52,705 bases of DNA, taken from Acidobacteriota bacterium. GTDB lineage: Bacteria > Acidobacteriota > Terriglobia > Acidiferrales > UBA7541. A program made the translations under genes and the position numbers. The notes below the pieces were generated by a model. It worked only from the letters and a program-made list of their open reading frames with translations, ran no database searches and was not told the origin of the DNA. Numbering within the stretch: position 1 is the first letter of the stretch; each line of letters starts with the position of its first letter. Positions 7,833 through 26,055 of the stretch are shown here, piece by piece. Location: positions 1-52,705 of the forward strand of contig QHZB01000201.1 of NCBI GenBank assembly GCA_003224525.1, read 5' to 3'.

Positions 7833-7833
7833 C

Positions 7834-8094
7834 CTACGCTCCATCCGTACGGTTAGGGATCAACGCTTCGTGCCTCTCCAGGCCCACTTCGTGCAGAGTA
7901 ATACAGGCAATCGTCGGGCCATAGGAAAACCCTTCTTGAGCGAAAGGCCGACGCCACCAGCACTGCCCGTTCGTGGGGTTGCCTGGGGCTTCATCTCCGG
8001 CGTTCAGACCCGGTGGCTCAGCGCAGCAGGTGCAGGATGCTGATTTCCGAGAGGGCTGTCGCAGCCATACGCAAGACTGACAACCAAGAATCAT
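7834..8094 (-). CDS. possible cysteine-rich small protein upstream of cusB
   Basis: An 86-codon frame from ATG 8094 to TAG 7836-7834 reads toward cusB. It has cysteine clusters (LGCQSC, SASCTCCAEPPG, GQCWW) that could bind metal. Its stop and the cusB start form TAGGATG, a spacing compatible with coupled translation. I recognise no family and see no clear ribosome binding site, so this could be a chance frame. The position at the head of a copper-efflux pair is the main reason to list it. Confidence 0.3.
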   Translation of the reverse strand: MILGCQSCVWLRQPSRKSASCTCCAEPPGLNAGDEAPGNPTNGQCWWRRPFAQEGFSYGPTIACITLHEVGLERHEALIPNRTDGA

Positions 8095-8857: not shown

Positions 8858-9772
8858 CTACTTGGCCTTCGGAGAAGTCGGTTTATTCGCTGCCGCTTCT
8901 ACTTGCGGTGTCGTGAAGAGCGATTCATCGAAGTTTGGATTCACCACCACCTTTTCGATGACGATTTTCTCTGGCGGAACGGGGCTACTCCTAAATCCTG
9001 GCGACTTTTGGGCCAATGGAAGAACTCTCGTCTCCAGAACGTACGGAATCTGTAGTCCATTCACCGGCCGGTAATCGCGATAGTAGACCTCCACTGGATG
9101 GTAGCTGCCATCGAGCCGCCTGGGCTGGCCTTCGATTTTCGCTTCCAAGAAGGACTGCGCGTCAATCCAGACATGGATGGACTGCCCGTTATTCATCGTT
9201 AGTTTAAGCTTATAGGTATCGCGGTTTTCAACCTTTTCCACGCCGTCCAGCTCAATCTTGGTACCCTTGGCCGCATAATCGACCAGGGGGCCATCGAGGT
9301 CTGCTTGCATGGATGCCCACTTCATTTCTTCTGCCGTATATGGCTCAACCACACGCCGGTTAAGGAACGGCCTTAGCTTCCAACCGTGCGCGCCGTCAAA
9401 CACCTGTATTGCCGTTTGGCCCTTAAACACCAGCTCAACCCGCGTTTTGCGGGGACGCTTCAGGTCCATCACAAACGGGAGCTGCGCCTCATCGACTGGC
9501 CGCTGAGGAATCGACTTTAGACTGGTCTTTGGTCCCTGCGGTGGAACCGGAAGAGTAGCCCGTTGATTCCCTCCGGCACCCAGTTTTCCCTCCAACGACA
9601 TCGTTTGGACTGCACGCCACGCCTGCAACCCGCCTCGGGCCGCGACGTTCCTGTCCACGATAGCAGCCGCGGAAAGATTAGACCCCGTCGGCGTATCGCC
9701 CGCCGCGAAGAGCGAAATGGCAAGCGCGAGTGAGATGCAAACTACAAAGACAACCAAGAACTTTCGGAACAT
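8858..9772 (-). CDS. exported LolA/LolB-like (outer-membrane lipoprotein-sorting-like) protein
   Basis: About 304 residues starting at the ATG at 9772, which is supported by AGAGG 8 nt upstream. A signal peptide (VFVVCISLALAISLFAAG) is followed by a conserved-looking segment AAAIVDRNVAARGGLQAW. The rest is beta-rich, with KTRVELVFKGQTAIQVFDG and a long WIDAQSFLEAKIEG strand, the half-open barrel pattern of LolA/LolB-type lipid or lipoprotein carriers. Members with the VDRNVAARGG type of start are often labelled outer-membrane lipoprotein-sorting proteins, but the true ligand is unknown. It is the last gene of the same-strand series behind the copper-oxidase genes, 128 bp after the preceding exported protein. 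Confidence 0.6.
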   Translation of the reverse strand: MFRKFLVVFVVCISLALAISLFAAGDTPTGSNLSAAAIVDRNVAARGGLQAWRAVQTMSLEGKLGAGGNQRATLPVPPQGPKTSLKSIPQRPVDEAQLPFVMDLKRPRKTRVELVFKGQTAIQVFDGAHGWKLRPFLNRRVVEPYTAEEMKWASMQADLDGPLVDYAAKGTKIELDGVEKVENRDTYKLKLTMNNGQSIHVWIDAQSFLEAKIEGQPRRLDGSYHPVEVYYRDYRPVNGLQIPYVLETRVLPLAQKSPGFRSSPVPPEKIVIEKVVVNPNFDESLFTTPQVEAAANKPTSPKAK

Positions 9773-9900
9773 TTTATGCGCCTCTATGCAAAGTTTTGCA
9801 CTAAGTCTAGGAAAGTATAAAGCAGAACCAATATTCGGTCTTTGCGCTACGACAAACTCCAAGCGCATTTATGCCGGCTACGATCTGGGGAAGGCAAACG

Positions 9901-10410
9901 CTATTCCACCACGAGTCCGTCAGCGTGGAATTGCCCAATCACCACGTTTATCCGGTCTCCGCGTTTCACTCGCCTGCCGCGGTTCGAGAAAGCCATCCAG
10001 TAGATTTTGCCCGCCTCGGGCGGGGCGCTCTGGCGCAGTTGCCCGACCTGTTCCAACGATGGGACCACGAGTTTGACGCCGGCCTGCGGGTCGATCAAGG
10101 AAGGCTCGAACTTCTTATCGTTGAGTCCTTTGGCTTTATCTGCGTCTAACACACGATAGCTAAAACGAACGATCTCGCCCGACTCCGCCGTCTTGACGCT
10201 CAGCGAATCAACTCCCCAGATGAGTTTGTAATACGTACCCGCTCGTCCAGCGAACCGATCTGGCCTATAGCGGGTTGAAGCGGCAGTCACCGAAGACTTC
10301 GCGGCCGGGGCAGCAGATTGGGCCCCGGTGCGTAAAACCAGAATGCCGCTGGCGAGTACCCCTGCCAGCAGCATCGACGTTGTTTTCAAGATCACGTTGC
10401 GGTCCATCAT
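9901..10410 (-). CDS. small exported protein of unknown function
   Basis: About 169 residues with a signal peptide or anchor (LLAGVLASGILVLRTGAQS). A compact beta-rich domain follows, containing YYKLIWGVDSLSVKTAESGE, FSYRVLDADKAKGLNDKK, a proline-led segment PEAGKIYWMAFSNRG, and the end GDRINVVIGQFHADGLVVE. The domain looks like a conserved family, but I cannot name a function. ATG at 10410 or 10407 follows an AAGGAAAAA stretch. It lies downstream of the giant gene behind a strong hairpin, so its expression may be lower than, or processed from, the upstream transcript. Confidence 0.6.
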   Translation of the reverse strand: MMDRNVILKTTSMLLAGVLASGILVLRTGAQSAAPAAKSSVTAASTRYRPDRFAGRAGTYYKLIWGVDSLSVKTAESGEIVRFSYRVLDADKAKGLNDKKFEPSLIDPQAGVKLVVPSLEQVGQLRQSAPPEAGKIYWMAFSNRGRRVKRGDRINVVIGQFHADGLVVE

Positions 10411-10449
10411 TTTTTCCTTTTCCCCGTCCCGTAGTGTCTGTTCGCCGAA

Positions 10450-10485
10450 CAGGGCGGGCATCCAAAGTTTCGGATGCCCGCCCTG
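10450..10485 (-). terminator. 14-bp perfect hairpin after the giant gene
   Basis: CAGGGCGGGCATCC (10450-10463) and GGATGCCCGCCCTG (10472-10485) form a perfect 14-bp stem around an 8-nt loop. On the minus strand it lies 20 nt after the stop of the giant gene and about 40 nt before the next ORF. No T-run follows on the minus strand. It is therefore better viewed as an RNA stabiliser, attenuator or processing site than as a classical intrinsic terminator. Confidence 0.55.
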
Positions 10486-10504
10486 CCAGGGTTGATTTGG
10501 TTGG

Positions 10505-13500
10505 CTAGTTCGCGCTGTAGTTAGCATTAATGATCGGCGTGGTTGCGGCGGTGCCATAACCCGTTACTAGGAGGTGTACAGTCCCGTTGAGCGCCGCCCC
10601 TGTTGTTCCGAGGACTGGCGTATATGTGATCGTGACCGTGCAGCTCGAACCTGCCGCGGGCGGTGCCAACGTTCCTCCCGGGTTGATGGGAGCGCCTGCC
10701 GCGCAAGTACCGCCGAGCACGTAATCCGTTAATGGTGCGCCGTTGACCCGTGTGAGCCTAATTATTGTTGGGACGTACGGCCCAGCATCAAGATTCGTGA
10801 TTGGGTTTATTGTGTTTGTGATCGTTATGGTGGCGGTCTTTGGAGTGGCGTTCGCCGGAGTCGTCGTCAACTGCGCGGTGACCCCCGCGGCCGTTGCCGG
10901 GGAGACGACAATCGTCGCAATCGTGTCGTGGCCGGTGAGCGCGACCGTCTGAGTGATACCGCCTGCGGTCACGTTCAATGTTCCAGTCCTCACTGCTTGC
11001 GAGGTACCGGTAGGAACAAAGTCCACAGTGATTACGCAGCTTTGTCCAGCACCAAGAGTTGTGCCGATGCAGTTATTGGAAGTGAAGGTGGTTAATGTAG
11101 CGGTGCCGCCCGTGCCCGTGGTTGCGCCCGTAACATCCGCCAAAGTGGCCACGGCATTTCCTGTGTATCCGTTGCCGGGGGTATTAAGCGTGACGGCCGT
11201 AATCGCCCCGGTCGCACTCACAGCGGTCACCCTTGCAGTTGCACCGGATCCACCGCCACGAGTGATGTTGACGATATCGCCCGCGGTGTACCCGCTGCCT
11301 CCATTCACCAATGTAACCGTTGCGACTGCGCTCGTCGGGATGACGAAACTTCCCGCACTGATTCCAGTGGCAGTAATCGTGGCGCTGGTGACCGTCACCG
11401 GGAGGATATCCGAGTTAATGACTTGGATGTCTTGATCCGGAGGTATGGGACTATGAGCTGGGACCAGACCGAAGTCCACCGCTGGCGGTGAGAGAGTGAA
11501 CGTTGAGTGACCAGGAGTGCCTGCAACCCGGATCGCTCCGGCATCAGTATTTGGGGGACCAGTCTTCCTCGGATTGTCGAAGAAGTCGAATGCAGGAGCG
11601 TCGGTGAAGTTCGTTCCAGTGACCCTCGCCGCAGTTGCGGCGGTGATGGCGTAGTTTCCGAGCGGCAGACCGCCACCGTAATTCCCGGAAGCTCCGCCCG
11701 GGGCTGTGGGGTTCGTCATCGACAACGGGCCCCAGCTGAGGTTGACCCAGTTGTTGCCTTCGTCCACGGTAGCCGTCGGAGTCAGGTTGAAGATTGGGTT
11801 GGGCACGGTTGCATCCGAAATACCCGGAGGCACTTGCCAGCCAACCGCCGCCGCCGGAACAACGCTCGCTGTCATTGCTTCCGGAGGTACTCGCGAACCG
11901 TCGCAGTATGAAGCGACGAAGGTCGGAGCGGTGTTGGAGTTACCTGCGCCAGTAACTGCCGAGCCGCCTGGTGTCAGAACCGAATCTGACGCGACGAGTG
12001 TGGCCCCGCCACTATGGTTGGCCGGTCCCGTGTCACCGCGCACGCCGATATCCCAGAACGTGGCGGCAGGGCAAGCGCCTGTTGTGGCTTGGCTCGGCGC
12101 TAGTGGGCCAGATGCTGCGCCGGCGGCAGTCGCACTATGCAGCGAGACTACGTGCTGCTGGTCCAGAGTACCCGCACCGAGGGCGCCCACTTGGATGTAG
12201 TACATACTGTTGTGCCAGACCACATTGTTCTCCAGCTTCGGAACCGAGAGGGTCCGGCAATTGCCGTTATTGCCTGCGGGGGTCCCGGTACTCACGGTAT
12301 AATGACCCGGGGGACAAATAATGCGGACAGCTGTGGGGCCAGTCGCGGCGAGATTCGCTCTCAAAATCGCGCTGTTCTGGATGGCCACCACTCCTGCAAC
12401 TTGTGGATGTGTGGTCACGCCGCAGTTTGGTGAGCCGGGGCAAGTTTGGCTTGAGCCCGGCGGCGTGCTGGATAACGTAGCCCCTATCGTGTTGAAGAGG
12501 GGTCCTGCCGAGGCAGTGCTGGAGTTGAATGCTATCGTGTTGTTGATGATGTTCACTGCGGTTGAGTCTTGCAGCGAGATTCCGGCTCCGTCCCAGCCAG
12601 CCACGTTATCGGTGATGATGTTGTTGGTGACGGTCACCGTGTTCCATTGCCCAGGATCCGTAGGGAAGGCCACCATATCCGAGCCGTTGGCTGCCTGGAA
12701 GGCGATCCCGCCTCCGTTGCCAGACTCGGCAGCGTTCCCCATGATGAGGTTGGCATTGATCACCAAGCCCGGACCGACGCCGTCGCTCGGACCAATACCG
12801 GCTTGAACTGTAACTGCCGCACCCAATGTTGCCGAAGCCGACGCACCTGAACCTGTGGTCGTAGTGAACGTTACGCCTACAGGGCCGGTGTAGCCGGCGC
12901 CGCCGCTGGTCAGGTGGATGGAGGTAATGGCGCCGCTGCCATTTACTGTTATCGTGGCGGTTGCGCCCAACCCACCACCTCCTGCGAAATTAACGGTGTC
13001 GGCTGATGTGTATCCAGTGCCGCCGCTGCGTAGCGTAACACCGGTAATCGTGTGGCCAACGGGTGTGCAGTCGCTATCGATAGTGGTGTTGTTGCCGCAA
13101 ATTATATCTGCATCGGGGGTGCCCATGACGATGATACCACCGCCGTTGGATGGGATCGTCGGGTTGGTGCTCTGATTGAATATAATCGTGTTGTGTTCGA
13201 TGTCACCATTGTAGCTGAACCCCATGTGACCGACGCCGCCGCCGTCACCGGTGCTCAAGTTGCCGCAGACCCAGTTGAAGTTGAACAGGTAGTAGTCGGA
13301 GCCGGTGCAGAAGCTGACACCGCCTGCCCCTGCCGGCGTGGCGGAGAATAATTCGTCGCCGGTCGAGGAGTTCAACGCGATATCGTTGTTGTGAACGTTT
13401 ACATTTACGTTTTCGCAGTACGGCAACACAGCATTCGGTATAGGGCTGTCCTCGCAGGAGCCAGGCGCCGCGTTCGTCAATCCCGCCCCCTGGATGTAAG

Positions 13501-16500
13501 CCGGAGGATATTCGCCCTGGCCGACGTTGATGCCGCCAGAAAGCGTACCAGCGTTGCTGACGATCCGGTTGTTGCCGATTTGCAGGTTATGCCCCCAGCC
13601 GTGGACGAAGATGGCGCCGCCACCCTGGGAACTTTGTGTGATGCCCAAGCCGTCGATGCTCGACGGGTTGCATGAGTAGTTGCTCGGGAACGGATTGGTC
13701 GCGTCGGTGGAACTGGTGTGGCAATTAGCGTTGGCGTCGCCAACGGCGAAGTTACCGTGACCTTGACTTTCCGGTTGACTTCCCATGAGGAGCGTCGTCC
13801 CTGCCGGGAACCCGGCAAGTAAAGTGGGGTCGTACGGATTCGAGGGGAAATTCACACCCTTCGCCAGTACCGTAATGCCCGCACCTTCCAGCGCACCCAT
13901 CAGGCTTGGTTCCTGCAACTGTTCGGCAAGATTGCCGTTGAGGTTGGCATCCCAGCCTAGAACGGCTTCGAGCGGCAACCGATCTACCTGTGGATTGATG
14001 GGCGTGGGGGTAAAGTGAGTCCAGCCAGCCCCTGGGCAACCGACCGAACGCGTTGGATCAAACGGATTGGCGCCAGTGCTGGGTTGGCCATTGAGCGCCA
14101 GGCCAAACAGACAAACGATCTCTTGGCGCCAGATATCCAGCTTGCCCGCAGGATGGGTATTGGCGTTGTGGGCGGAGGGGGAGTGCACATTGGTGGCAGA
14201 GGGAGTACTACACGTAGTCGCCACTCCCGCAGTCGTGTTGCAAGTGGGATCGACAATGATCAAGTCGCCCGGATCGGCACCGTTAATCGCGGCCTGGATC
14301 GATGCCGATGGCGCAACGTGAGTCGGCGCTTTGCCGCCAATTGTCACTGTCACGGTGTCAATCGATTGCTTCCCAGCGACGACCACGCTGGCCCCGTTTG
14401 TTGTGGACGTTCCGAGGGCAGTTGACGTACCCCCAGTCACGCCTGGGCTGAAAGTCACACTAGGCGCGGTTAGATATCCGGAACCGGGGTTGGTAATTGA
14501 TACCGAGACTATGGGCCGGTTTGCTGACAGTACGGCTGTTGCGGCTGCCGGCGTTGTTGGAGCGCCGCCTCCAGTGATCCCAACCGTGGGCGCGCTTGTG
14601 TAACCAGCGCCGGGAGCGGTAACTGTCACTGCGGACACGAATCCGGACGTGACAGGGGTTCCAGCCGCAGTGGCTCCGGTGTGTGCGCCTGTGAAAGTCA
14701 CCGAGATCGCGCCTGTGAGGGCGTAGCTACCCGCATTGGTTATGGTGACGCCGGTTACGTGACCTCCCGTGAGCACGGCTGTTCCAGTTGCCCTTATTCC
14801 ACCAGTACCTGTAGGCGCACCGAAAGTCACCGTGGGCGCGGTCGTATACGTGCCAGCGCTGTTGGTCATCGTCACCGAGGTTACTCTCCGCCGCACAGTG
14901 GCTGTTGCAGCCGCGCCGGTCCCACCGCCTCCAGTGTTTGTGCTAGTGAACGTTACGCCAGGTGTGCTTGTGTAGCCAGCTCCGCCATTGGTAACCGTCA
15001 CCGAGCCTACGCCGCCGCCGCCCAGAACGGGTGTTCCAATCGCCCTGGTTCCACCCGCCGGGGGTAGACCGAAAGTCACCGTGGGGGGGGTGCCGGTACT
15101 GGAATAACTCCCTCCTCTGGTGATCGTCACGCCCGTGATGTTACCTCCGGTGCGTGTGGCGCCAGTCTTGATGACCAGTTCACCGCATTGCGCCGTCGAG
15201 CCTCCGTATTGGGCTTGTTGCTGGACACGGCAATTCGGCACACCACTCGGGACAGTGACTGTGATCGATGTGTCGCTCCAAGAGGAAACCGGAGCATTCA
15301 CTCCACCGATAGTCACGCCTCCCAACGCGAGAGTCCCGTTTTGCTGCGTAGCGCCAAAGCCATAGTGGCGCAGAACGGTTTTTGCATTGTACGGAGCCAC
15401 TGTTGCCGACGGCCCAGTGTAGGCATAGTTGGGCACCATCTGGTCGCCCAACGAAGTGATCGTGAGGGTACCACCGGCCGCGCTCACATAGGGTCCGATT
15501 CCATTGCTGCTATCCACTTCGCTGATCGCTGGCGTGGCATCCGGGTAGGCGCAGTCCGGGTTGTTGTACCCGGCGCCTACGAAGGCGGACGTGGGCGTTA
15601 CCGGAGTGTCCATGTACTGGGTTTGTCCCGGCATGAACGGGATCTCGTAGCAGAACTGGCTGTATTGCGGGTTGAACAGGGGATCGGGGATCAGCTTGCC
15701 ACCCGGACCTGGAATCGGTCCCGGATCATTCATGCACGTGACCATCATCGTGGGCGCGTACCCAGTCGGGTTCGGCGGGTTGACTTCCCACGTCGAGTAA
15801 GTTAGGCCGTCGTAGGTTCCCCACTGGTCGGTATACACGCGGGATATTTCGGTGCCAGTCCAATCCTTGATAGATACCGGCAGGCTGGCAGGCGAGAACT
15901 TCTCGCCGAACTGTGGTGAGAACGGATCGAATTCCGACGTGAAGTCGTCCGTGATCACGCCAGTGAAGTGCGCGGCCACGTGGGCCGAGGTGAAGACCCA
16001 GAACTTCGCCAGCGCCGACGCCTGTTCCGTGAGTGTCACTTCCTTGCGGTCGCAGAGATTGCGAGTAGCTCCTGCAAACGGCGCTACTTCAAGAGACTGT
16101 GGGAACAGGCTGATGTAATCGGGAACGATACGCGTCGCCCCCACGCAGGGCCAGAAGATTTCGACGCTTCCGGTGTCCCCCTCGCCTTGTGGAAAGGTCG
16201 GTCTGCCGAAATCCTGCGTCGGATTCTGTACGTTGTTGGCGTTGTAGGTGGCGCCGATCGCGGCCTGGTCGGGAAGAATGTAAACTGACCCTGCTAGGCC
16301 AGGGAACTGCACGGTGACCGGAGCAATGTAATTGTCGCCGATCAGGATGTTCTTGTCCTCTTCCTTCACCAATTCGTAGCCCGGAGGCACAACCACTTCT
16401 ACGACATACTTGCCGGCCGGCAGCATGTCTTCCTTGCCGAAACGGAAGGTATCGGTGGCGTCAGGATTCTTGACGCAGATGGTGCAGTTTGTGCCGGTGG

Positions 16501-19500
16501 TGTTGCCGGTGGTCGGGTTTATGCCTGTGACGCTGGGGAACTGGTAACTGCCGTCGAAACGCGCCGGCTGGACCTGATTCCAATTGTGCATGCCGTCGTA
16601 GCACTTGAATTGCGAGTTGTTCGGCACGGTGTGCAGGGGTGTCCCGTTGTGCATGTTGTTGTACACGTCCAGGTAATCCGGCTGGTCAAACAGTGTGAAG
16701 TAGAAGAGATCGGCGTTCGTACCTGTGCCGGCGCCCTGGCCCGGGCAGCTCATGTTCGGGTTGCCGCTTGTGGCGTTGAAACCCTGAGCCCAATCGTCCC
16801 AACTGCTGGTCGTGGTGTGGTCAACCAACGTGAGGGTTGGCGTAACCTTATCGGCCGCCGTCCCCTCCTGATACAGGTTCATGGTGACTCCCGGCACGTC
16901 CGGCGTCCAACTGGTGTGGATGAGCAAACTAGGATCGTCGAATGGCCGAGTCGAGGCGTAGATCACTTCGCCATGAATCCCGCCATTCTCGTTGGCCGCG
17001 AAGGGCTTCTTGCCGAATTCGATGAAACTGTTCTGGCCAGCGAAACCCTGCCAACCCTCGGTGCCAGCCCAGGGCGGATCGACACGTCCGGTAGATCCAC
17101 CTGCTGTGTCTCCAGGGTTACAGTCCGCCGATGCGCAATATCGTGCGCCCGGTACCCGCAAGGCAGCGGGCACAGGGATCTGTTCAGCAGTGTTCGCCAA
17201 GCTTGCGGCGATGTTGGAGTTGCCGCATACCGTTCCGGTGGTTGCCCCGCAAGTCGAGCCGTCGGACGGACCGCCCGCGTCGTAAACCACGTGGGTCCCC
17301 GTGTTCTTGAAACGCGTCGTATCCGTTTCAACGACGTACCAGCTGAACAGCGGGAAGATCTCGTTGAAGCCCGCGTTGCCAGCCAGGTCGGTGTTGTTGA
17401 AGTTGGAGTAGCTGCCATCGCGGAAACGGATGTTCGTCGGAAGAAGGGTGAGTCCGGGCTGGCTATTGCCAAAGTTCGCGTTGCACCCTGTCGGGACGCC
17501 AGTCGCCGTGCATGCCGTTCCGGTATAGTCGGTTGACACGCCGCTGCCGTTCCGATCGAAGAAGCTCTTGGTGTAGATATTCGCCTGCCACTGGTTTGTG
17601 GCAATCTGTCCCAAGTCGGTGGTAGTTCCGCCAGCGAGCCTGACAGGCGTCGAAAGGCCGTCCACGAGCATGTCGTTCCATTGGTCAAATACAGTGACTC
17701 TCCAATCTCCGTCGGGCAGCCCGCTGAGACTGAAGGAGCCATCGCCGTTGCACTTGGTGAACGCGAAGTCTTCCCCGTCCGGATCTCCAAAGCTTACGTA
17801 GCACTGAGTGAAAGCAAAGCTAGAGTTGTCGCCGCTGCTGTAAAGTCTCTCATCCGGCGTGCGGCTCATGCGCTCGGTTGTGACCAAGCCCGTGACGGTA
17901 TTTCCGCAGCCCGTGACGCCCCCGATGGTAGGATCGCTGCCATTGCAGACAGCCGCTTTGCGGGCATTGATGATTGCTGGATTGGCAAAGCCGATAGCTA
18001 CGTGGAATCCCGCTGGGCCATACTCCTGGAAGTAGCTTGGTTCTTGAACCCGGAGGAAGGAATCATGTGCCTTCTGGCCGTCCAGGGTGTTGGTTTGGAG
18101 CCACTCTTCTCCCCTTGCAATCCGGTCGGCTCCCGGCGTGGCTACGACGCCGTACCTTCCCGGCATCAGGTTGGCAATGACTGCCTGACCTGCCAGCGGG
18201 GACGGAGTCAAACCGTCTGATTCGAATACCGGGCAGACCGTGATCAAGCCGGTGATGCCCGTTTGAGTCGGATCGGGTATTTGTAGGAAGTGGCCGGGGT
18301 GCGCCGGATCGGGAATCGGACCGTCAATCGTACCAATCCTCGAAATCGCCGAAATCGGGCACGCATCCAGCGTGGTGGTCGGGTCTATCGTGTCCGCCAG
18401 GCTGTTCGACAACGGCTGGTTGAACATGTCGTAAGTCATCTGCCCGGTCGCATCGCCCGTGCCACCAGCATCGTCGAAGAGCGTGATATTGAATTGCCCA
18501 AGGCCGGGCTCGTTGTTGGCGTTTACCGTGGTCGTTCCGCCGCCGCCATCCTGCTCACCGTTGAGCGGGAAATCGTCCTGGAACACGAAGACGGAGAGCT
18601 TCGACGGTGGAAATGGATCGGGTTGCACATAAACAGTGATGGGGTTGAAGACACAAGTAGTAACGGTACCAGCGGTAGTGCACGTGGGTACGACAGGAGT
18701 GCCGCCCATACCGTGGCCGCAGACGGATGTATCAAAGCCTGGGGCCGCATTGGCTATACCGTTAACGCAGCCGGCGCCGCCGTATGCGTTACCAAACGGG
18801 TTTCCCGCATCTCCCGGCAGGACTGAGAGATAGTAGCGCTTGGTCGGATCCAGATGAACTTGGGCGGGATCTACGGCCGTCTGTTGTGAGCCATCAGTTC
18901 TGCAAACGCCATTGCCAACATCGCACACCGTGCTTACGTGCGCCCCAGTGGCTGGGTTGATGACTGTCTGGCCCGATTCGCAGGCCAACGCGCCCGCCGG
19001 CCCGGCGCAACCTGCTGCCACGACCGGCATATAGCTAGTATGGAAATTCGTCCCAAAAGTCATGGGAACGCTTGTGCCGGCCGGTGGTGTGCAGCCTGCT
19101 ATCGCGACGCTCGAGTTCGTCGTGCAATTGGGATTGACATAGAAAGTGCGATCTTCTTCAATAATCCACCGATAGTCGGTTATAACGGTTGTCTTATCTT
19201 TGCCGTCCAAAACTGTAACTGAAAGATTGCTGGCCGGCAGGAAGGTCAGCGTCACGGTCGCGGTTGTGCTACTTTGCGTTCCCCGTGAGTTCTTCGCATA
19301 GTAAGTAAAAGTGGAGGTACAACCGGCGGTGGCAGCACACGGCGTCGCCAGTGACGCGTTGAACCCTCCATTCGGGTCTGCACTAACTGTCAGGCCGGAG
19401 CTCGTAGTAGCAAGCGGCGTAACAACGGTAAGCGGATATCCCGCGTTGTCTTTGTCAACCGATAGGATGCCGGGGGGCGCGATGGCCAGGTGTGCAGCCT

Positions 19501-21220
19501 GGTTTGACGTGTACGCGATGTTGTTCATCACGATGCCGGCGGCAGTCCCAGCTTCCCCCGCACCCAGTGTCACCGTAGCCGTGAGAGTCGTGGAGCTACA
19601 TGACGCGACCGTCGTCGTTGTCGCGGCCACGTACGCGTTGTTAGCGCAATAGGTGCAGGAGTCCGAAGTGGTCGCGGCGGTCTGAACATAGGTAAATGTG
19701 CCGTCCACGTTCAAAGTCACCGTACCACCGGTTGGCGCTGCCAAGAGATGAACGCCATAGACATTCGAGTCATTGGCGATTACACCTTTGCCTGGATCCG
19801 ACACGGTCAGCCCAGGGCACGGAGCGGCGGAGCACGCAACCAGGGAGTTGTACCTGTCAGCGTTGGCTGCCGCGGAAGCGAATGTGGGGGCGCTCGGGAA
19901 TCCGGCGCCATTGATACCGATGTAGGCTAGCATCCCGGCGTCGCGTGCGGTGGCGTTGCCTGACAGACTCAACTGCCGGTCAAACACCGGCAGCGCTGTC
20001 CCGACGGTGGCGGGAACATTGATCATCACGTCGTAAGTCTTGCCGGCGGGCAGGAAAACCTCGCTTTGGACGCGTGCAACGCCCGGCAGCGGATTGCCGT
20101 CTTCAGCAATCAGCGAAAAACCGGTAGGCGGGACAGTCGCCGGGGCAATTGCGGTCCCTGTTTGCGATCCGACGATCGAAGGCACGTGCATGCGCAGGCC
20201 GGCGTTCACGAAGCGCACCAATACGGATCCGGTGACCGGTGTCGTGGCAGCTCCCGTCAAAGCTGGGAACAAAGAGGGATTAGTAGCCGCCGCGGCGGTC
20301 TTGTCGAATGCCACGCCGTTGAATAGGTAATACAGCGGCGTATAGTTCACCGCTGGCGGATAGCAGGTGTTGATTACCCCGACCGCTGAACCGGGATTGC
20401 CGCATTGGCCTGGCTGCCCAGACCACACTTTGGTTTCGCTGAAACCCGCGGTATTGACCGCAGTGCTGACTGCATTGTTTTGGACGGAGTCGATCTCACT
20501 GAGAAGCAGTGGGACTTCGGCATTGTAGGTTACGGCTGGAGTTGTGCCAACAGCTGGATACGCAGTCCCCGTCGCGGCTGCTGTCGGCGCGGTTGTAACC
20601 ACCAGCATGCCGTACAGGCCCATAGGACCCTGAATTGAGGGGTGCGTTCCTGACTCGATCAGATAGGTGCCAGGCCTGAGAGCAGGCGTCGGGACAGTAC
20701 AGGTGAGACCCCAGCACAGCGAAGTTGTAGCTCCCGCAGCCACTTCCGTGGAGAAGGACTGCACACGGTTGCCCTGCACTGGCGGCACGCCCACACCAAC
20801 TGGCGCCACACCCGGCGCGGTGCCGGCAATGGGCCATGTCAATGGCTGGGCGTTGGTATGGTCCGGACTTGTCGTGGAGGTCGCCGTCGTTCCCAGACCG
20901 CCGCCCAACTGGCCAACAATCACCAGCGAAGTAGCGGGAACGGTAATCACCACGGGCGACCAGGGGGCTGCTGCCGGGGCCAAAGGATTCAACGCAACGC
21001 AGGTCTGCGCGCCCGTCGCTAATGCAGTGCCTGTCACAGGCGCGCAAGTGTAGCCCCACATCTGGACCGTTGTGCCGTCGGGCAATATTGTGGTCGTCGG
21101 CGCCGCGGTTAGGTTGACCACCTGCTGCGCAAAGGACACACCCGCAGTCAGGAGAAGAGCTGCTACGGCGAGTGTTGCCGCCTTCAAGATTGCTTTGATA
21201 TTATTCATTCGCATCTTCAT
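10505..21220 (-). CDS. giant exported multidomain protein linked to multicopper oxidases
   Basis: 3571 residues from ATG 21220; ATG 21214 sits better behind GAGGG. A signal peptide is followed by a cupredoxin-like multicopper-oxidase region (about 30-450; GTYLIESGTHPSIQGPMGLYG-type, but without copper His clusters). Next come cadherin/Ig-like repeats (about 470-660), SdrD-B-like domains (about 850-1700) and an IPT/TIG-like domain (about 1950-2015). A glycine-rich run of six repeats (about 2020-2275) precedes a parallel beta-helix (about 2300-2920) and a choice-of-anchor-D domain (about 3240-3430). The same repeat also interrupts the helix (about 2720-2810) and the anchor-D domain (about 3294-3387). 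There is no sortase, autotransporter or type-9 sorting signal. It lies 27 bp after the second oxidase gene, so it is surely co-transcribed. It is probably a scaffold for the oxidases. Confidence 0.85.
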   Translation of the reverse strand: MKMRMNNIKAILKAATLAVAALLLTAGVSFAQQVVNLTAAPTTTILPDGTTVQMWGYTCAPVTGTALATGAQTCVALNPLAPAAAPWSPVVITVPATSLVIVGQLGGGLGTTATSTTSPDHTNAQPLTWPIAGTAPGVAPVGVGVPPVQGNRVQSFSTEVAAGATTSLCWGLTCTVPTPALRPGTYLIESGTHPSIQGPMGLYGMLVVTTAPTAAATGTAYPAVGTTPAVTYNAEVPLLLSEIDSVQNNAVSTAVNTAGFSETKVWSGQPGQCGNPGSAVGVINTCYPPAVNYTPLYYLFNGVAFDKTAAAATNPSLFPALTGAATTPVTGSVLVRFVNAGLRMHVPSIVGSQTGTAIAPATVPPTGFSLIAEDGNPLPGVARVQSEVFLPAGKTYDVMINVPATVGTALPVFDRQLSLSGNATARDAGMLAYIGINGAGFPSAPTFASAAANADRYNSLVACSAAPCPGLTVSDPGKGVIANDSNVYGVHLLAAPTGGTVTLNVDGTFTYVQTAATTSDSCTYCANNAYVAATTTTVASCSSTTLTATVTLGAGEAGTAAGIVMNNIAYTSNQAAHLAIAPPGILSVDKDNAGYPLTVVTPLATTSSGLTVSADPNGGFNASLATPCAATAGCTSTFTYYAKNSRGTQSSTTATVTLTFLPASNLSVTVLDGKDKTTVITDYRWIIEEDRTFYVNPNCTTNSSVAIAGCTPPAGTSVPMTFGTNFHTSYMPVVAAGCAGPAGALACESGQTVINPATGAHVSTVCDVGNGVCRTDGSQQTAVDPAQVHLDPTKRYYLSVLPGDAGNPFGNAYGGAGCVNGIANAAPGFDTSVCGHGMGGTPVVPTCTTAGTVTTCVFNPITVYVQPDPFPPSKLSVFVFQDDFPLNGEQDGGGGTTTVNANNEPGLGQFNITLFDDAGGTGDATGQMTYDMFNQPLSNSLADTIDPTTTLDACPISAISRIGTIDGPIPDPAHPGHFLQIPDPTQTGITGLITVCPVFESDGLTPSPLAGQAVIANLMPGRYGVVATPGADRIARGEEWLQTNTLDGQKAHDSFLRVQEPSYFQEYGPAGFHVAIGFANPAIINARKAAVCNGSDPTIGGVTGCGNTVTGLVTTERMSRTPDERLYSSGDNSSFAFTQCYVSFGDPDGEDFAFTKCNGDGSFSLSGLPDGDWRVTVFDQWNDMLVDGLSTPVRLAGGTTTDLGQIATNQWQANIYTKSFFDRNGSGVSTDYTGTACTATGVPTGCNANFGNSQPGLTLLPTNIRFRDGSYSNFNNTDLAGNAGFNEIFPLFSWYVVETDTTRFKNTGTHVVYDAGGPSDGSTCGATTGTVCGNSNIAASLANTAEQIPVPAALRVPGARYCASADCNPGDTAGGSTGRVDPPWAGTEGWQGFAGQNSFIEFGKKPFAANENGGIHGEVIYASTRPFDDPSLLIHTSWTPDVPGVTMNLYQEGTAADKVTPTLTLVDHTTTSSWDDWAQGFNATSGNPNMSCPGQGAGTGTNADLFYFTLFDQPDYLDVYNNMHNGTPLHTVPNNSQFKCYDGMHNWNQVQPARFDGSYQFPSVTGINPTTGNTTGTNCTICVKNPDATDTFRFGKEDMLPAGKYVVEVVVPPGYELVKEEDKNILIGDNYIAPVTVQFPGLAGSVYILPDQAAIGATYNANNVQNPTQDFGRPTFPQGEGDTGSVEIFWPCVGATRIVPDYISLFPQSLEVAPFAGATRNLCDRKEVTLTEQASALAKFWVFTSAHVAAHFTGVITDDFTSEFDPFSPQFGEKFSPASLPVSIKDWTGTEISRVYTDQWGTYDGLTYSTWEVNPPNPTGYAPTMMVTCMNDPGPIPGPGGKLIPDPLFNPQYSQFCYEIPFMPGQTQYMDTPVTPTSAFVGAGYNNPDCAYPDATPAISEVDSSNGIGPYVSAAGGTLTITSLGDQMVPNYAYTGPSATVAPYNAKTVLRHYGFGATQQNGTLALGGVTIGGVNAPVSSWSDTSITVTVPSGVPNCRVQQQAQYGGSTAQCGELVIKTGATRTGGNITGVTITRGGSYSSTGTPPTVTFGLPPAGGTRAIGTPVLGGGGVGSVTVTNGGAGYTSTPGVTFTSTNTGGGGTGAAATATVRRRVTSVTMTNSAGTYTTAPTVTFGAPTGTGGIRATGTAVLTGGHVTGVTITNAGSYALTGAISVTFTGAHTGATAAGTPVTSGFVSAVTVTAPGAGYTSAPTVGITGGGAPTTPAAATAVLSANRPIVSVSITNPGSGYLTAPSVTFSPGVTGGTSTALGTSTTNGASVVVAGKQSIDTVTVTIGGKAPTHVAPSASIQAAINGADPGDLIIVDPTCNTTAGVATTCSTPSATNVHSPSAHNANTHPAGKLDIWRQEIVCLFGLALNGQPSTGANPFDPTRSVGCPGAGWTHFTPTPINPQVDRLPLEAVLGWDANLNGNLAEQLQEPSLMGALEGAGITVLAKGVNFPSNPYDPTLLAGFPAGTTLLMGSQPESQGHGNFAVGDANANCHTSSTDATNPFPSNYSCNPSSIDGLGITQSSQGGGAIFVHGWGHNLQIGNNRIVSNAGTLSGGINVGQGEYPPAYIQGAGLTNAAPGSCEDSPIPNAVLPYCENVNVNVHNNDIALNSSTGDELFSATPAGAGGVSFCTGSDYYLFNFNWVCGNLSTGDGGGVGHMGFSYNGDIEHNTIIFNQSTNPTIPSNGGGIIVMGTPDADIICGNNTTIDSDCTPVGHTITGVTLRSGGTGYTSADTVNFAGGGGLGATATITVNGSGAITSIHLTSGGAGYTGPVGVTFTTTTGSGASASATLGAAVTVQAGIGPSDGVGPGLVINANLIMGNAAESGNGGGIAFQAANGSDMVAFPTDPGQWNTVTVTNNIITDNVAGWDGAGISLQDSTAVNIINNTIAFNSSTASAGPLFNTIGATLSSTPPGSSQTCPGSPNCGVTTHPQVAGVVAIQNSAILRANLAATGPTAVRIICPPGHYTVSTGTPAGNNGNCRTLSVPKLENNVVWHNSMYYIQVGALGAGTLDQQHVVSLHSATAAGAASGPLAPSQATTGACPAATFWDIGVRGDTGPANHSGGATLVASDSVLTPGGSAVTGAGNSNTAPTFVASYCDGSRVPPEAMTASVVPAAAVGWQVPPGISDATVPNPIFNLTPTATVDEGNNWVNLSWGPLSMTNPTAPGGASGNYGGGLPLGNYAITAATAARVTGTNFTDAPAFDFFDNPRKTGPPNTDAGAIRVAGTPGHSTFTLSPPAVDFGLVPAHSPIPPDQDIQVINSDILPVTVTSATITATGISAGSFVIPTSAVATVTLVNGGSGYTAGDIVNITRGGGSGATARVTAVSATGAITAVTLNTPGNGYTGNAVATLADVTGATTGTGGTATLTTFTSNNCIGTTLGAGQSCVITVDFVPTGTSQAVRTGTLNVTAGGITQTVALTGHDTIATIVVSPATAAGVTAQLTTTPANATPKTATITITNTINPITNLDAGPYVPTIIRLTRVNGAPLTDYVLGGTCAAGAPINPGGTLAPPAAGSSCTVTITYTPVLGTTGAALNGTVHLLVTGYGTAATTPIINANYSAN
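10950..11500 (-). repeat. choice-of-anchor-D domain interrupted by two glycine-rich repeats
   Basis: The family core starts with FTLSPPAVDFGLVPAHSP and resumes with SNNCIGTTLGAGQSCVITV. Between them, at about 11060-11340, sit two glycine-rich units: VATVTLVNGGSGYTAGDIV and then AITAVTLNTPGNGYTG. The flanks read through as one normal domain if the insert is removed. This indicates in-frame insertion of a repeat module into a loop of an existing domain. Confidence 0.65.
12790..13060 (-). repeat. two glycine-rich repeats inside the beta-helix domain
   Basis: Two units (about 40 residues each) with GVTLRSGGTGYTSADTVNF and SIHLTSGGAGYTGPVGVTF are placed within a parallel beta-helix. The helix turns before (HNTIIFNQSTNPTIPSNGGG) and after (VINANLIMGNAAESGNGGG) share the same N-ladder/GGG pattern, so the helix resumes after the insert. 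Confidence 0.65.
14400..15165 (-). repeat. six tandem glycine-rich VTVTNGGxGYTSxPTVTF repeats
   Basis: Six tandem units of about 40 residues share the pattern [VI]xxVT[VIM]T-GGxGYTSAPTVTF followed by a Gly/Thr/Ala spacer. Examples are GSVTVTNGGAGYTSTPGVTF and SAVTVTAPGAGYTSAPTVGI. The run lies between an IPT/TIG-like domain ending CGELVIKTGATR and a strand beginning GKQSIDTVTVTIGGKAPTHV. These two flanks look like parts of a single strand order that the run has separated. Confidence 0.7.
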
Positions 21221-21247: not shown

Positions 21248-22912
21248 TTACATAGACTCGTCGATCACAAATTCCCTTGAATCAACTAACATCATCATCA
21301 ACATTCCGCCGGGGAAAATGTTGTTGGTGGTGATTTCGCGCTCGTTGTGAGAGTGCCACATGAACGCAAAGCCGGCCTCCGATGACGGGCTATTCGCAAT
21401 AGTCCCGGAAGGTGGAGTGCTGCCTGAGGTGGTGCATGAAGTGGTGTTATTGACGCCCGTGCACGTTCCGCCAACCGCGCGGGTGGTCGCGTCCGGACCA
21501 AGATAGGGACTGCCGCTGTACCAGGCGCCATTCGTCAGGATGTTGGCATCGGGCAGGGTTGCAGGGCCGCCAGACGCGACATCGCCGAACGGTGCAACTT
21601 GAACCGGCTTGTTGTGGTCTTGGCACCATTCGTAATAGTTGATCTGAGTTTGTGCCGCAACGCCGGTGTTGTAGCCGTTGGCATCTGGAGTACATGTTAG
21701 CTTGGCGTTAGGGTCGGAAGAGGTTGGATTATGACCGTATGCATCCCAGTTGAGACCCTTGCCGGTCCAGTAGAAAATCCCGTCGAAGGCCAACCCCGGA
21801 GTCGTCGTGGTGGTGAACAGCAGGGGTCCCGCGAGAGGGGTGGTCTCGCCCGCAGTGGCCGCTGGGCTGAGAATCAAGTTCCCGTCCCGCGCCAGAATGC
21901 GCACGTGGTTACCGTGCTCGTGGAACGGGTGTTGCCACCGGCCTTGACCGATGACGCGGATCAGCACCTGCTCGCCTGGATGCATGTGAGGATTGCCGTT
22001 GTAGGGCTGGTGCGGATATTGGAACGCATAGTTAGGGTCCATGTCGTCGGGCATCGAGCGTCCATTAATCATGAAGTACCCAGGATGGTAAGGCTCGGTC
22101 GCGACATTGAGACTGCATCCCGTAGCCCCAGCCGCACAGCCGGCCGTCGCTCTGACCTGCGCCAACGCCTGGGTGTGAATTCTGGGATCCATTTCGGAGA
22201 ACTGGAAAATGTATTCCCGGTCGTAGCAAGCATGGTTGTTGTCGTAGGCGGCTCCTACAGCGCCTGAAGCATTCGCGAGCCGGAAATCACTTTCACCCCA
22301 GTTCCCTTCCACTGCCACGTTCGCAGCAGCCAACCCGGAGGTGCAGGCGGAGGGGATCGTGGCCGGGAGCACAATGATCGCGCCGTACAGGCCCATCTCG
22401 ACCTGCAGGTCGCCTTGGGTTCCGCTGTAATAGGCGTGTGTCCCCGGTGAGAAGCCAGTGAGGGTATACATCACCGAACCGCCAGGTGCGGCCTCTTGCG
22501 TCATGAGGCCAGTCACGCCGCCCGACGTTGCCACATGAAAGCCGGGAAACAGAATCGATGTGTTGCCGGCAGACGTGGGGAGATTATTCGTCAGCGTCAC
22601 AGTGACCGTCGATCCTTCCGTAACGATCAGCGTGGGGCCTGGAACTTGCATCGCGTTGCAAAACCCGGTGGTGATAGTCGCCGGGGCAAAGGTCGGCATG
22701 AAGCCGGCGCTGCAACCGTATCCCCACGAATAAATCGCCTGCCCATCCGGCTGGGTGAGGTAGGCGGATTGCGCCGTTAGGCTGAAGCTCGTGCCGGTGA
22801 TGCCGGGAGCCGAGGCGTGCGCCGTAGCCGTGAACAGCGAGGCCAGCGCCAGCATCACAACCGCCAGCAGCTTGGACATCGAGATCGTTTTGTTCATTTT
22901 CGTCTCTCTCAT
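21248..22912 (-). CDS. multicopper oxidase-like protein carrying the HPxHxHG/HSH half-site
   Basis: 554 residues with a Sec signal peptide. The first cupredoxin domain keeps the fold (GLYGAIIVLP), but where canonical enzymes have HxH pairs it reads FHVATSGG and THAYYSGTQG, so most copper His are missing. The second domain has a full HPFHEHGNHVRI motif and, near the C-terminus, FMWHSHNEREITTNN. That gives type-2/3 His ligands but Ser in place of the type-1 Cys. The protein alone should therefore lack a type-1 copper. Its complement is in the adjacent gene at 22923. The ATG at 22912 follows AGGAGAGG, which overlaps the stop of that upstream gene; there are 10 bp between the ORFs. Confidence 0.85.
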   Translation of the reverse strand: MRETKMNKTISMSKLLAVVMLALASLFTATAHASAPGITGTSFSLTAQSAYLTQPDGQAIYSWGYGCSAGFMPTFAPATITTGFCNAMQVPGPTLIVTEGSTVTVTLTNNLPTSAGNTSILFPGFHVATSGGVTGLMTQEAAPGGSVMYTLTGFSPGTHAYYSGTQGDLQVEMGLYGAIIVLPATIPSACTSGLAAANVAVEGNWGESDFRLANASGAVGAAYDNNHACYDREYIFQFSEMDPRIHTQALAQVRATAGCAAGATGCSLNVATEPYHPGYFMINGRSMPDDMDPNYAFQYPHQPYNGNPHMHPGEQVLIRVIGQGRWQHPFHEHGNHVRILARDGNLILSPAATAGETTPLAGPLLFTTTTTPGLAFDGIFYWTGKGLNWDAYGHNPTSSDPNAKLTCTPDANGYNTGVAAQTQINYYEWCQDHNKPVQVAPFGDVASGGPATLPDANILTNGAWYSGSPYLGPDATTRAVGGTCTGVNNTTSCTTSGSTPPSGTIANSPSSEAGFAFMWHSHNEREITTNNIFPGGMLMMMLVDSREFVIDESM

Positions 22913-22922
22913 TGCCTCTCTC

Positions 22923-24560
22923 CTAATTAACGTGAACCTCGGTCATGAGCCCGCCGAAATTTTCGGCGTCGTTAGACAGGTGGTCGAGATTGGGGGTGTA
23001 CAGATAGTAGGTCCCCACGGGAACCGTCGTGGTGCAGGCGCCGCCGACGGCTCGGACAGCGCAGGAATCGAGAATCACGTCGAGCGACTCGCCACCGCCC
23101 AGCGTGATCGAGTTGGTGTAGTAGTCGAGGTTGTTTCCCGCCTGATCCCGCAGCAGCTTGGCGTTATATCCGACGACATGCATCGGAATCCCTAGTGAGG
23201 CCAAGGTCTGATATTCCGAAACATCGAGGTCCGAAATACGCAGAAGCGCCCTCTGGCCCGCCGTAATGTTGATGATCGAAGGCAGCGGCTGTGAGAAATG
23301 ATTCACGCCATCCGAGGACTGCGTCTCCAAAGGACCTGACTTGACCGTGTCTGGGTAGCTCCGCCCGTTCAGCAAGAAGTATTTGTCCTTCATGTCCGCG
23401 AAACCTTCCGGATTGAAAGTCATGCCGACAAAATGGAAGTTGGGATCGAAGCCGTGAATCTGGATGGGATACTCGACATCGTAGTAGGTCGAGCCGTCGC
23501 CATCGTTATACGCATACCCGCTTGTCCCGCCCTGCCGAATAGTTGCTGCCCCTGCCGCACCCGTATTTACAGCGGGCAGGGGGTTGCTGCACAGGATATC
23601 GGAATGCACTGTATCCGCGGACGACGGGCAAGCCGTGCGCAGATCGAGTTGCTGATTCTGGAGCGCCGTATAGAGGTCGCCAGTGACTCGATCTTGCCGT
23701 GGGCGCACATAAAGTTGCCCGACCATGCCCATCTGCAAGTGCTCGGGAGGCGTAATATGGCAGTGCCAGAAATATGTGCCGGCATCCGGCGCAAGGTAGT
23801 AATAGGTGAAGCTGCCGCCGATGTTGATGGCGACTGAAGCGTCCGGCACGCCATCGTAAAACGCTGAAGCGTTGGGATAGCCGTGGAAGTGAACGGTGTG
23901 TTGCTCGAACAAGTCCGGCCGCATAATCATGCCCACATTGCTGAGAGTGAGGAAGTACTCGTCATCCTCATCGATCGCCATCAGAGGGGCCGGGATGTTG
24001 CCGTTCATCACGCCGACATCCAACATTTGGCGCGGATCCACGTGTCCATTGATGGCGCCTCCGTTGTCGAGGTCGGGTACCTGGCCCACGGCGCCGTTAT
24101 ACGTGAACGAAGCCAAGTTGGGCGTACTTGTCCCGGACGGGTCATCCGTCGTGGCAGGGTCACCGGGTAGAAGCACATTCGAGGGCGGATTGATGGTATT
24201 GAACTCGGTCGGGGAGTCCGTGCCGGCCTGCCCGCTCGCAATCTTCGCGAGACCAGACAATGGCCCGAAGGAGAACAGGTACGTCTGCGTGCCGTCGCCC
24301 ATCGTCGCGTAGCCGTCGCCGCCCGAGATCTGTTGGCATTTAATAGCGCCGTTCACATTCGCAGTCGGCGCCTGAAATGTGGAAGCGGAGGGCGCCGAAA
24401 GTGTGGTCGGACCGGTGTACGCCGGTTCGACATCGTTGAGCGCCGCCGGGTGGGTGATGGTGCTGTTTGGACATTGAACCCGGAACGACTGGGCGCTTGC
24501 GACCCCTGTCGCAAGACACGTAAAAGCGATGAGCAAACCAATTTGGTGCAGCTTTCTCAT
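22923..24560 (-). CDS. multicopper oxidase-like protein carrying the type-1 copper site
   Basis: 545 residues with a signal peptide (IGLLIAFTCLATGVASAQ). The N-terminal cupredoxin domain has HTVHFHG and, about 50 residues later, WHCHITPPEHLQMGM. The latter combines a type-1 site (Cys, His, Met) with type-3 His. The second domain continues with INGRSYPDT-type oxidase segments (LNGRSYPDTV) but has only GIPMHVVGYNAKLL where an HPxHxHG motif would be. It thus supplies the half-site that the next gene lacks. This is the first gene of the run. The ATG at 24560 has AAGGAG 11 nt upstream, a slightly long spacing. Manganese, iron or phenolic oxidation are possible activities; none is shown by the sequence. 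Confidence 0.88.
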   Translation of the reverse strand: MRKLHQIGLLIAFTCLATGVASAQSFRVQCPNSTITHPAALNDVEPAYTGPTTLSAPSASTFQAPTANVNGAIKCQQISGGDGYATMGDGTQTYLFSFGPLSGLAKIASGQAGTDSPTEFNTINPPSNVLLPGDPATTDDPSGTSTPNLASFTYNGAVGQVPDLDNGGAINGHVDPRQMLDVGVMNGNIPAPLMAIDEDDEYFLTLSNVGMIMRPDLFEQHTVHFHGYPNASAFYDGVPDASVAINIGGSFTYYYLAPDAGTYFWHCHITPPEHLQMGMVGQLYVRPRQDRVTGDLYTALQNQQLDLRTACPSSADTVHSDILCSNPLPAVNTGAAGAATIRQGGTSGYAYNDGDGSTYYDVEYPIQIHGFDPNFHFVGMTFNPEGFADMKDKYFLLNGRSYPDTVKSGPLETQSSDGVNHFSQPLPSIINITAGQRALLRISDLDVSEYQTLASLGIPMHVVGYNAKLLRDQAGNNLDYYTNSITLGGGESLDVILDSCAVRAVGGACTTTVPVGTYYLYTPNLDHLSNDAENFGGLMTEVHVN

Positions 24561-25512: not shown

Positions 25513-26055
25513 TCAGTCGGATGCTATTCCCACCCAAGTGAGCTCTCTTGTCGTTCTCTCTTCCGCTGTGAGAGAGGCAGCCGATTCCCCTTCTGGCGCA
25601 AGACCACATGCCTCTCCATCGTCTATCTTTGCGGTCGGCCGCTCCAGTGGTAGGTCTTCATTGTTGAGCAATCGCCGAACTTCATGCAATGTGCGCCATG
25701 CCGTCTTGTAAGTAACACCTGTTTCGCGTTGAATCCGCTTTGCGGATATGCGGCTGTCTGTGGAACCCATTAGGTATATGACGTAGAACCAAGTCTTGAG
25801 TGAAGTAGTGCTCTTCGTAAAAACAGTCCCATTGAGCGGGTAGATGTGATTCCCACAGTGGTCGCAGGCGTACGCCGTACGGCCGGTCACGCGGTGATGT
25901 TTACGTTCGATGCTGCATTTCTCGCACTTAGTGACCCCGTTCGGACAGCGCTGTTCTTTGATGTATTCGAGGCAGGCATCATCATTCGCAAATTCGCGGT
26001 TAAAATCGTCCACCGAATAGAACTGTTCTTTTGCGATGCTCAGTCTTGGCCTCAT
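25513..26055 (-). CDS. IS1595-type transposase zinc-ribbon protein lacking the catalytic domain
   Basis: 180 residues matching the N-terminal part of ISXO2/IS1595 transposases: FYSVDDFNREFANDDACLEY, two CxxC pairs (CEKC and CDHC) of a zinc ribbon with HIYPLNGTVFTKSTTSLKTW, and a helix-turn-helix-like segment SAKRIQRETGVTYKTAWRTL. The DDE-type catalytic domain that should follow is absent. The protein ends in an acidic Thr/Ala-rich tail instead. It may be a truncated insertion sequence or a retained DNA-binding derivative. No flanking inverted repeats were identified by eye. Confidence 0.7.
   Translation of the reverse strand: MRPRLSIAKEQFYSVDDFNREFANDDACLEYIKEQRCPNGVTKCEKCSIERKHHRVTGRTAYACDHCGNHIYPLNGTVFTKSTTSLKTWFYVIYLMGSTDSRISAKRIQRETGVTYKTAWRTLHEVRRLLNNEDLPLERPTAKIDDGEACGLAPEGESAASLTAEERTTRELTWVGIASD

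Follow-up and report, generated by a model that had tools for sequence, protein, structure and literature searches.

The window analysed here, a 52,705-nucleotide stretch of DNA from a bacterium of the Acidobacteriota (contig QHZB01000201.1 of assembly GCA_003224525.1), carries on its minus strand two adjacent genes, termed A and B, which appear to divide the copper ligands of a single multicopper oxidase (MCO) between them. Gene A (22923..24560) encodes a protein of 545 amino acids (aa) and gene B (21248..22912) one of 554 aa. Between them lie 10 bp (22913-22922). A Shine-Dalgarno-like sequence of B, AGGAGAG (22918..22924, minus strand), shares the last two bases of the A stop codon TAG; a preliminary description of this DNA had given the same spacing and the same overlap of the second ribosome binding site with the first stop. 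Both window proteins are probably secreted, judging by eye from their signal peptides. Gene B is followed on the minus strand by one open reading frame (ORF) of 3571 aa (10505..21220), comprising the core of a third protein, C (19886..21136, residues ~29-445), and a giant scaffold (10505..19885).

Both A and B belong to the multicopper oxidase superfamily by the Pfam cut-offs for Cu-oxidase_2 and Cu-oxidase_3. In A, the models PF07732 (53.8 bits, cut-off 21) and PF07731 (47 bits, cut-off 20.4) match the same stretch, and the Cu-oxidase_3 match defines domain 1 at residues 181-289 (23694..24020, minus strand). In B, PF07732 scores 51.6 bits (residues 88-184) and PF07731 20.7 bits (residues 274-350), the latter barely above its cut-off of 20.4. 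The two proteins are collinear homologues (hhalign 96.9%, E 1.5e-10) with a common two-domain cupredoxin plan, in which only domain 1 of A and domain 2 of B retain copper ligands.

Domain 1 of A aligns with domain 1 of the two-domain MCO 3g5w (whole-match E 5.8e-15), which contains the motifs HTIHWHG and HCH, and the roles of the A residues were assigned from this alignment. The motif HTVHFHG (residues 221-227, 23880..23900, minus strand) provides H221 for the type 1 (T1) copper and H224 and H226 for the trinuclear site, while WHCHITPPEHLQMGM (residues 265-279, 23724..23768, minus strand) provides H266 and H268 for the trinuclear site and C267, H274 and M279 for the T1 copper. All T1 ligands and half of the trinuclear site are thus located on domain 1 of A, and domain 2 of A is devoid of ligands. 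In B the arrangement is the opposite, domain 1 being dead and domain 2 live for the trinuclear site only. It carries HPFHEHG (residues 328-334, 21911..21931, minus strand), with trinuclear H331 and H333 and a conserved H328, and MWHSHNERE (residues 518-526, 21335..21361, minus strand), with trinuclear H520 and H522 and S521 in place of the T1 Cys. Domain 2 of 3g5w and 2zwn has HxxHxHG and HDH and no Cys, and domain 2 of B, with HPFHEHG and WHSH, looks like such a normal non-T1 partner domain. The roles of the B ligands are proposed from these motifs, from a weak alignment and from the homology with A.

An MCO normally uses ten His and one Cys to bind its four coppers (PMC4203857). No single chain type of the window holds this set; A contributes six His and the Cys, B four His, and the count is reached only by the two together. 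The incompleteness of each chain and the completeness of the pair had been proposed in the preliminary description, which also listed the two motifs of A, those of B with Ser replacing the T1 Cys, and the loss of the N-terminal HxH pairs from B, all of which were re-found. It went astray in stating that the 545-residue protein has no HPxHxHG. Since HTVHFHG shares the HxxHxHG ligand spacing, A does not lack this type of motif, and it is more exact to credit A with an entire domain of the T1 type and B with an entire domain of the non-T1 type.

To describe conservation, column counts were taken from an alignment of the window with the 80 loci that ranked best among 222 relatives in one genome-contig scan. 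The rows originate from Acidobacteriota metagenome-assembled genomes, Burkholderia, Paraburkholderia, Cupriavidus, Trinickia, Collimonas, Pandoraea and others, including other proteobacterial metagenome-assembled genomes. In A, H221, H224, H266, C267, H268, H274 and M279 are kept in all 81 rows, and H226 in 80, being replaced by Ser in locus L069, whose other checked A ligands remain. For B, three loci with a broken reading frame (L052, L060 and L071) were left out, and H328, H331, H333, H520, S521 and H522 are kept in all of the 78 rows. Since the ligand columns are essentially invariant in both proteins, the half-site pattern is more than chance. A divergent subfamily, termed compact, is present in nine Acidobacteriota genomes, and in each of the eight loci examined A has HxxHxH and HCHxxxxEHxxxxM, B has HPxHxH and HSH, and both HxxHxH and H[CS]H are missing from C.

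The two genes are also strictly paired. In 35 genomes, reached via 37 chosen A-holding loci, 41 A places pair with 41 B places, with gaps of 1-141 bp between the matches; because these genomes were picked for holding A, they test pairing and not frequency. The only extra hits were one A fragment of an already counted A and one B hit corresponding to the C-like N-terminus of a 3056-aa frame. Among 297 Acidobacteriota genomes, scanned at E <= 1e-20 with the best 4-5 first-look candidates scored per genome, the A profile was found in 14 and the B profile in 13, all 13 within the 14. The odd genome has its A at a contig edge. Among 72,556 plasmid records, B matches eight, and these are also the ones with an A coverage of at least 80%; A further matches 218 other records below 60% identity, ordinary MCOs included. 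In Cupriavidus metallidurans CH34 both A and B reside on a megaplasmid. The possibility that the pair is an artefact of one split gene was dismissed, since the two-gene arrangement recurs in the 80 loci and the 35 genomes and signal peptides are visible on both proteins.

The third gene was overlooked in the preliminary description. The first ~380 residues of the 3571-aa ORF align with B through domain 1 and the first half of domain 2 (hhalign 99.4%, E 2.4e-21, 25% identity), and the C core is a two-domain cupredoxin paralogue of B without copper ligands. No Pfam model hits any part of the 3571-aa ORF of the window; up to residue 445 it contains just three His, and HxH does not occur there. 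With a profile built from compact C proteins, the C of Paraburkholderia scores far better than its B (5.9e-68 vs 2.4e-41), and window C (3.8e-43) and window B (1.7e-41) are nearly tied. The order A-B-C is present in 74 of the 80 loci, and two more have it with a broken B. The remaining four (L051, L057, L060, in which B is broken, and L070) all end within 528 bases after B. In the compact subfamily A, B and C are neighbouring genes in 8/8 loci, with C of 341-674 aa as called. The genome of the window itself contains a second A-B-C copy on another contig (locus L125, contig C362, 1031-14991), with A 84% identical to that of the window and B intact.

On a tree of the cores, A, B and C form one group each (100/100, 97/92 and 99/99); A_G071 was left out of this tree, and four rows were less than half filled. 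Each group holds both window-type and compact members, and the triplication therefore most likely predates the split of the two subfamilies. A second tree had fuller cores and distant outgroups, with the outgroup attached to long branches; in it A (94/99) and C (100/100) are again single groups and B and C join (99/98), and the branching order of B and C is less sure.

The part of window C behind the core, ~3100 residues, matches a giant protein encoded upstream of A in seven compact loci (phmmer E 8.6e-38 to 6.8e-165), some of these proteins being cut by a contig end. In the eighth (G171) the match falls within the A protein (2281 aa, E 3.4e-120), in its N-terminal part. The scaffold thus forms the rear portion of C in the window family, is a separate gene upstream of A in seven compact loci, and is fused to A in one, and its homologues match SdrD_B, cadherin-like/Big_9 and beta-helix models, typical for surface proteins. 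Since the four modules are found in three operon arrangements, it can be argued that they act together.

Known MCOs form their trinuclear site either within one chain, where two of its domains meet, or at the contact of identical chains. In two-domain MCOs it joins domain 1 of one monomer with domain 2 of the adjacent one (PMC13151041, PMC6854816 and PMC3192119). Transferred to a ring of A, B and C, this geometry would give the interfaces A1:B2, B1:C2 and C1:A2. Of the six cupredoxin domains of A, B and the C core, domain 1 of A and domain 2 of B are the only ones with ligands and the other four are dead, which fits the prediction of one surviving site; the idea of such a ring predates the discovery of the compact C genes and follows the first look at window C. 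It is quite probable that A, B and the C core are paralogous two-domain cupredoxin subunits of a 1:1:1 pseudo-three-fold ring resembling that of the homotrimeric two-domain MCOs, in which one of three sites survives. With somewhat less assurance, the set is suggested to be a ceruloplasmin-like heterotrimer in three pieces, where A and B share the single O2-reducing site and the dead C anchors it to the scaffold, and which would have evolved out of a type C homotrimer on a path separate from those of ceruloplasmin and MnxG. In the A-B-C ring, the T1 copper of A would accept electrons from an extracellular substrate and hand them on via C267 to the trinuclear site between A and B, where O2 would be reduced to water. 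Domain 2 of A, domain 1 of B and both domains of C, having lost their ligands, would keep a structural role, and C would tie the oxidase to the giant surface scaffold.

The conclusion of the preliminary description that A and B imply an obligate heteromeric oxidase is supported by the nearly invariant complementary half-sites, the strict A-B pairing and the two-domain plan in common with MCOs that form the trinuclear site between chains. Its two-subunit picture was incomplete, leaving out the ligand-free paralogue C. The sequences themselves show how the ligands are distributed and conserved, the pairing of A and B, the paralogy of the subunits and the shuffling of the scaffold; secretion, assembly, copper content, activity, anchoring and substrate are features that we infer from them.

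A number of observations weigh against the proposed heterotrimer. Domain 2 of B aligns poorly with two-domain enzymes of solved structure (9.8 bits for domain 2 of 3g5w, and -2.6 bits where WHSH stands opposite FHDH of 2zwn), and for this reason the roles of H520 and H522 rest on motif and position. The alignment of C with B ends in the first half of domain 2, and the C core has no significant match in PDB (best 0.13). The window C core lacks ~24 residues around residue 95 (20900-20960), a LTINLTNNLP-like stretch in relatives which is present in the 13 other aligned relatives and in the second copy of the same genome, and the C of that second copy is broken over several reading frames; C may therefore not always be needed. 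B is a single group in only 33% of bootstraps with distant outgroups. The 1:1:1 stoichiometry is suggested by counting domains. The in-frame A-B pair of L053, translated through the A stop as a device, folded poorly with AlphaFold (predicted local distance difference test score, pLDDT, 40.8; predicted template modelling score, pTM, 0.31), and this single-chain model was rejected; the A core alone fared little better (pLDDT 54.9, pTM 0.34). Both models being too poor for the interface of A domain 1 and B domain 2, the assembly stays a matter of inference. Finally, genomes with a fused A-B gene, for which the preliminary description had proposed a search, did not appear among the matches listed in the genome-contig, 297-genome and 35-genome searches. 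B frames of 1043-1109 aa (L070, L104 and contig C38 of G288) were considered as fusions and rejected, as their overlap with A lies in a different frame and was put down to chance extension.

The absence of ligands from C and the broken C beside intact A and B in the second copy would suit an oxidase made of A and B alone, as a heterodimer or in another A-B stoichiometry, with the C core as a mere anchor outside the ring, since every catalytic ligand is on A and B. This explanation is nevertheless unlikely. The C core is paralogous to B and has the same two-domain plan, C is found in 8/8 compact loci and 76/80 other loci, the four exceptions ending at most 528 bases after B, and two two-domain subunits do not close a three-fold ring. 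A still less probable alternative, that A and B are not an oxidase and serve in copper storage or electron transfer, their HxH motifs binding metal separately, draws on the existence of T1-only cupredoxins. It is hard to reconcile with His sets that match the MCO motifs one by one and are conserved in two strictly paired genes, and it is the least credible of the explanations considered. Very unlikely as well, if slightly less so, is a cut-up gene of a six-domain oxidase of the MnxG/MofA/ceruloplasmin type. Six cupredoxin domains, one trinuclear site and four ligand-free domains are indeed what six-domain proteins have (PMC3600357). In the prokaryotic ones, according to the same paper, domains 2 and 3 enclose the trinuclear site and T1 is in domain 2; in the animal ones, the trinuclear site lies where domains 1 and 6 meet, and mononuclear sites occupy domains 2, 4 and 6. 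However, T1 here lies in the first domain of its pair, in contrast to the even domains of six-domain proteins, and no fused relative was found among the matches listed. Because the position of T1 within the domain pair is the opposite one, the three proteins are not simply a split MnxG or ceruloplasmin; the set would work like ceruloplasmin yet is probably not a cut-up member of that lineage.

The proposed heterotrimer can also be compared with the known systems. The two-domain enzymes 3g5w and 2zwn, which we take to be type C, share with it the two-domain chains, T1 in domain 1, a Cys-less domain 2 and a site between chains. They differ in being homotrimers with every chain complete and three sites, as opposed to three diverged genes, one site and a C with scaffold. 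Type C MCOs are defined, in PMC13151041, by two domains with T1 only in the N-terminal one. In the window, T1 in an N-terminal domain and trinuclear His in a domain 2 are not combined on the same chain and come together only in trans, from A domain 1 and B domain 2, and the presence of three paralogous genes argues for a heterotrimer over a type C homotrimer. Ceruloplasmin, Fox1 and MnxG are similar in having six cupredoxin domains with a single trinuclear site, the other sites having decayed, and differ in being one polypeptide with T1 in even domains and the site between domains 6 and 1 or 2 and 3 (PMC3600357). In the comparison with six-domain MnxG and ceruloplasmin suggested in the preliminary description, the set of the window agrees, by sequence, in retaining one trinuclear site of three possible, and departs in its chains, which are three ORFs of 545, 554 and 3571 aa with no fusion among the matches listed, and in T1, which is in domain 1 of A. 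All coppers of MnxG are, as far as is known, bound by its own chain, and no A, B or C chain has a full set. The complex MnxEFG is alike in being a multi-subunit bacterial multicopper oxidase (PMC5622069).

No MCO with copper ligands divided between different gene products was found in the open-licence literature, as far as its accessible parts go. Insect MCORP is to our knowledge not known to complete a site in a partner, and B here keeps exactly the complementary half. What MCORP shares with the present proteins (PMC4203857) is that MCO relatives without many copper ligands are conserved and needed. Heteromeric laccases of plants, fungi, algae and bacteria resemble the set as hetero-oligomers, and are mentioned in the accessible portions of PMC8517187, PMC6854816 and PMC10673308 without ligands of one site divided between different chains. 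PMC10673308, PMC6854816, PMC10367259 and PMC8517187 were set aside as precedents for heteromeric MCOs, the word heterotrimer denoting in the parts available a reaction product or CO dehydrogenase.

Further genes follow the set on the minus strand. Gene D (9901..10557), a small protein with no Pfam match, lies downstream of C in both subfamilies, including 5/8 compact loci (L127, L129, L130, L132 and L133), and may be an unrecognised accessory factor. Gene E (8858..9868) has homologues in Paraburkholderia, also located downstream of C, and one of these matches LolA_like just under the cut-off (28.7 of 30 bits). A CusB/HlyD-type efflux gene (6324-7844) and a CusA-type efflux gene of the resistance-nodulation-division family (2959-6387) are recurrent neighbours and not core members. 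In the window they come after the set, as they do in four (L138, L139, L142 and L143) of seven other Acidobacteriota large-family downstream regions with gene D, being absent from L137, L141 and L144; the short regions L140 and L145, without gene D, are outside the seven. They also follow the set in one of the eight compact loci (L133). The stretches that were read in Paraburkholderia (L118) and Cupriavidus (L117) contain none. In L118 a downstream ORF with one CxxCH matches Cytochrom_C, and L117 has an ORF of similar size. A multihaem cytochrome candidate with 23 CxxCH (3464-5623) is encoded downstream of the compact A-B-C of L131, and since it is the only one among the eight compact loci, multihaem partners are not typical of the set. 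As a tentative guess, the substrate could be a metal, perhaps Cu(I), with Mn/Fe or soil phenolics ranked after it. Upstream of A, at 25513-26055, lies an ORF with an IS1595-type transposase zinc-ribbon domain.

If the proposal is true, an MCO with half-sites on separate gene products would represent a homotrimer diverging into unequal subunits before any fusion, and thereby a step toward six-domain enzymes which is no longer visible in ceruloplasmin. It would also be a split oxidase, each half of which could be supplied separately. In the single annotated record examined, the proteins of A, B and C type are labelled hypothetical, and the heterotrimer would account for this conserved set.

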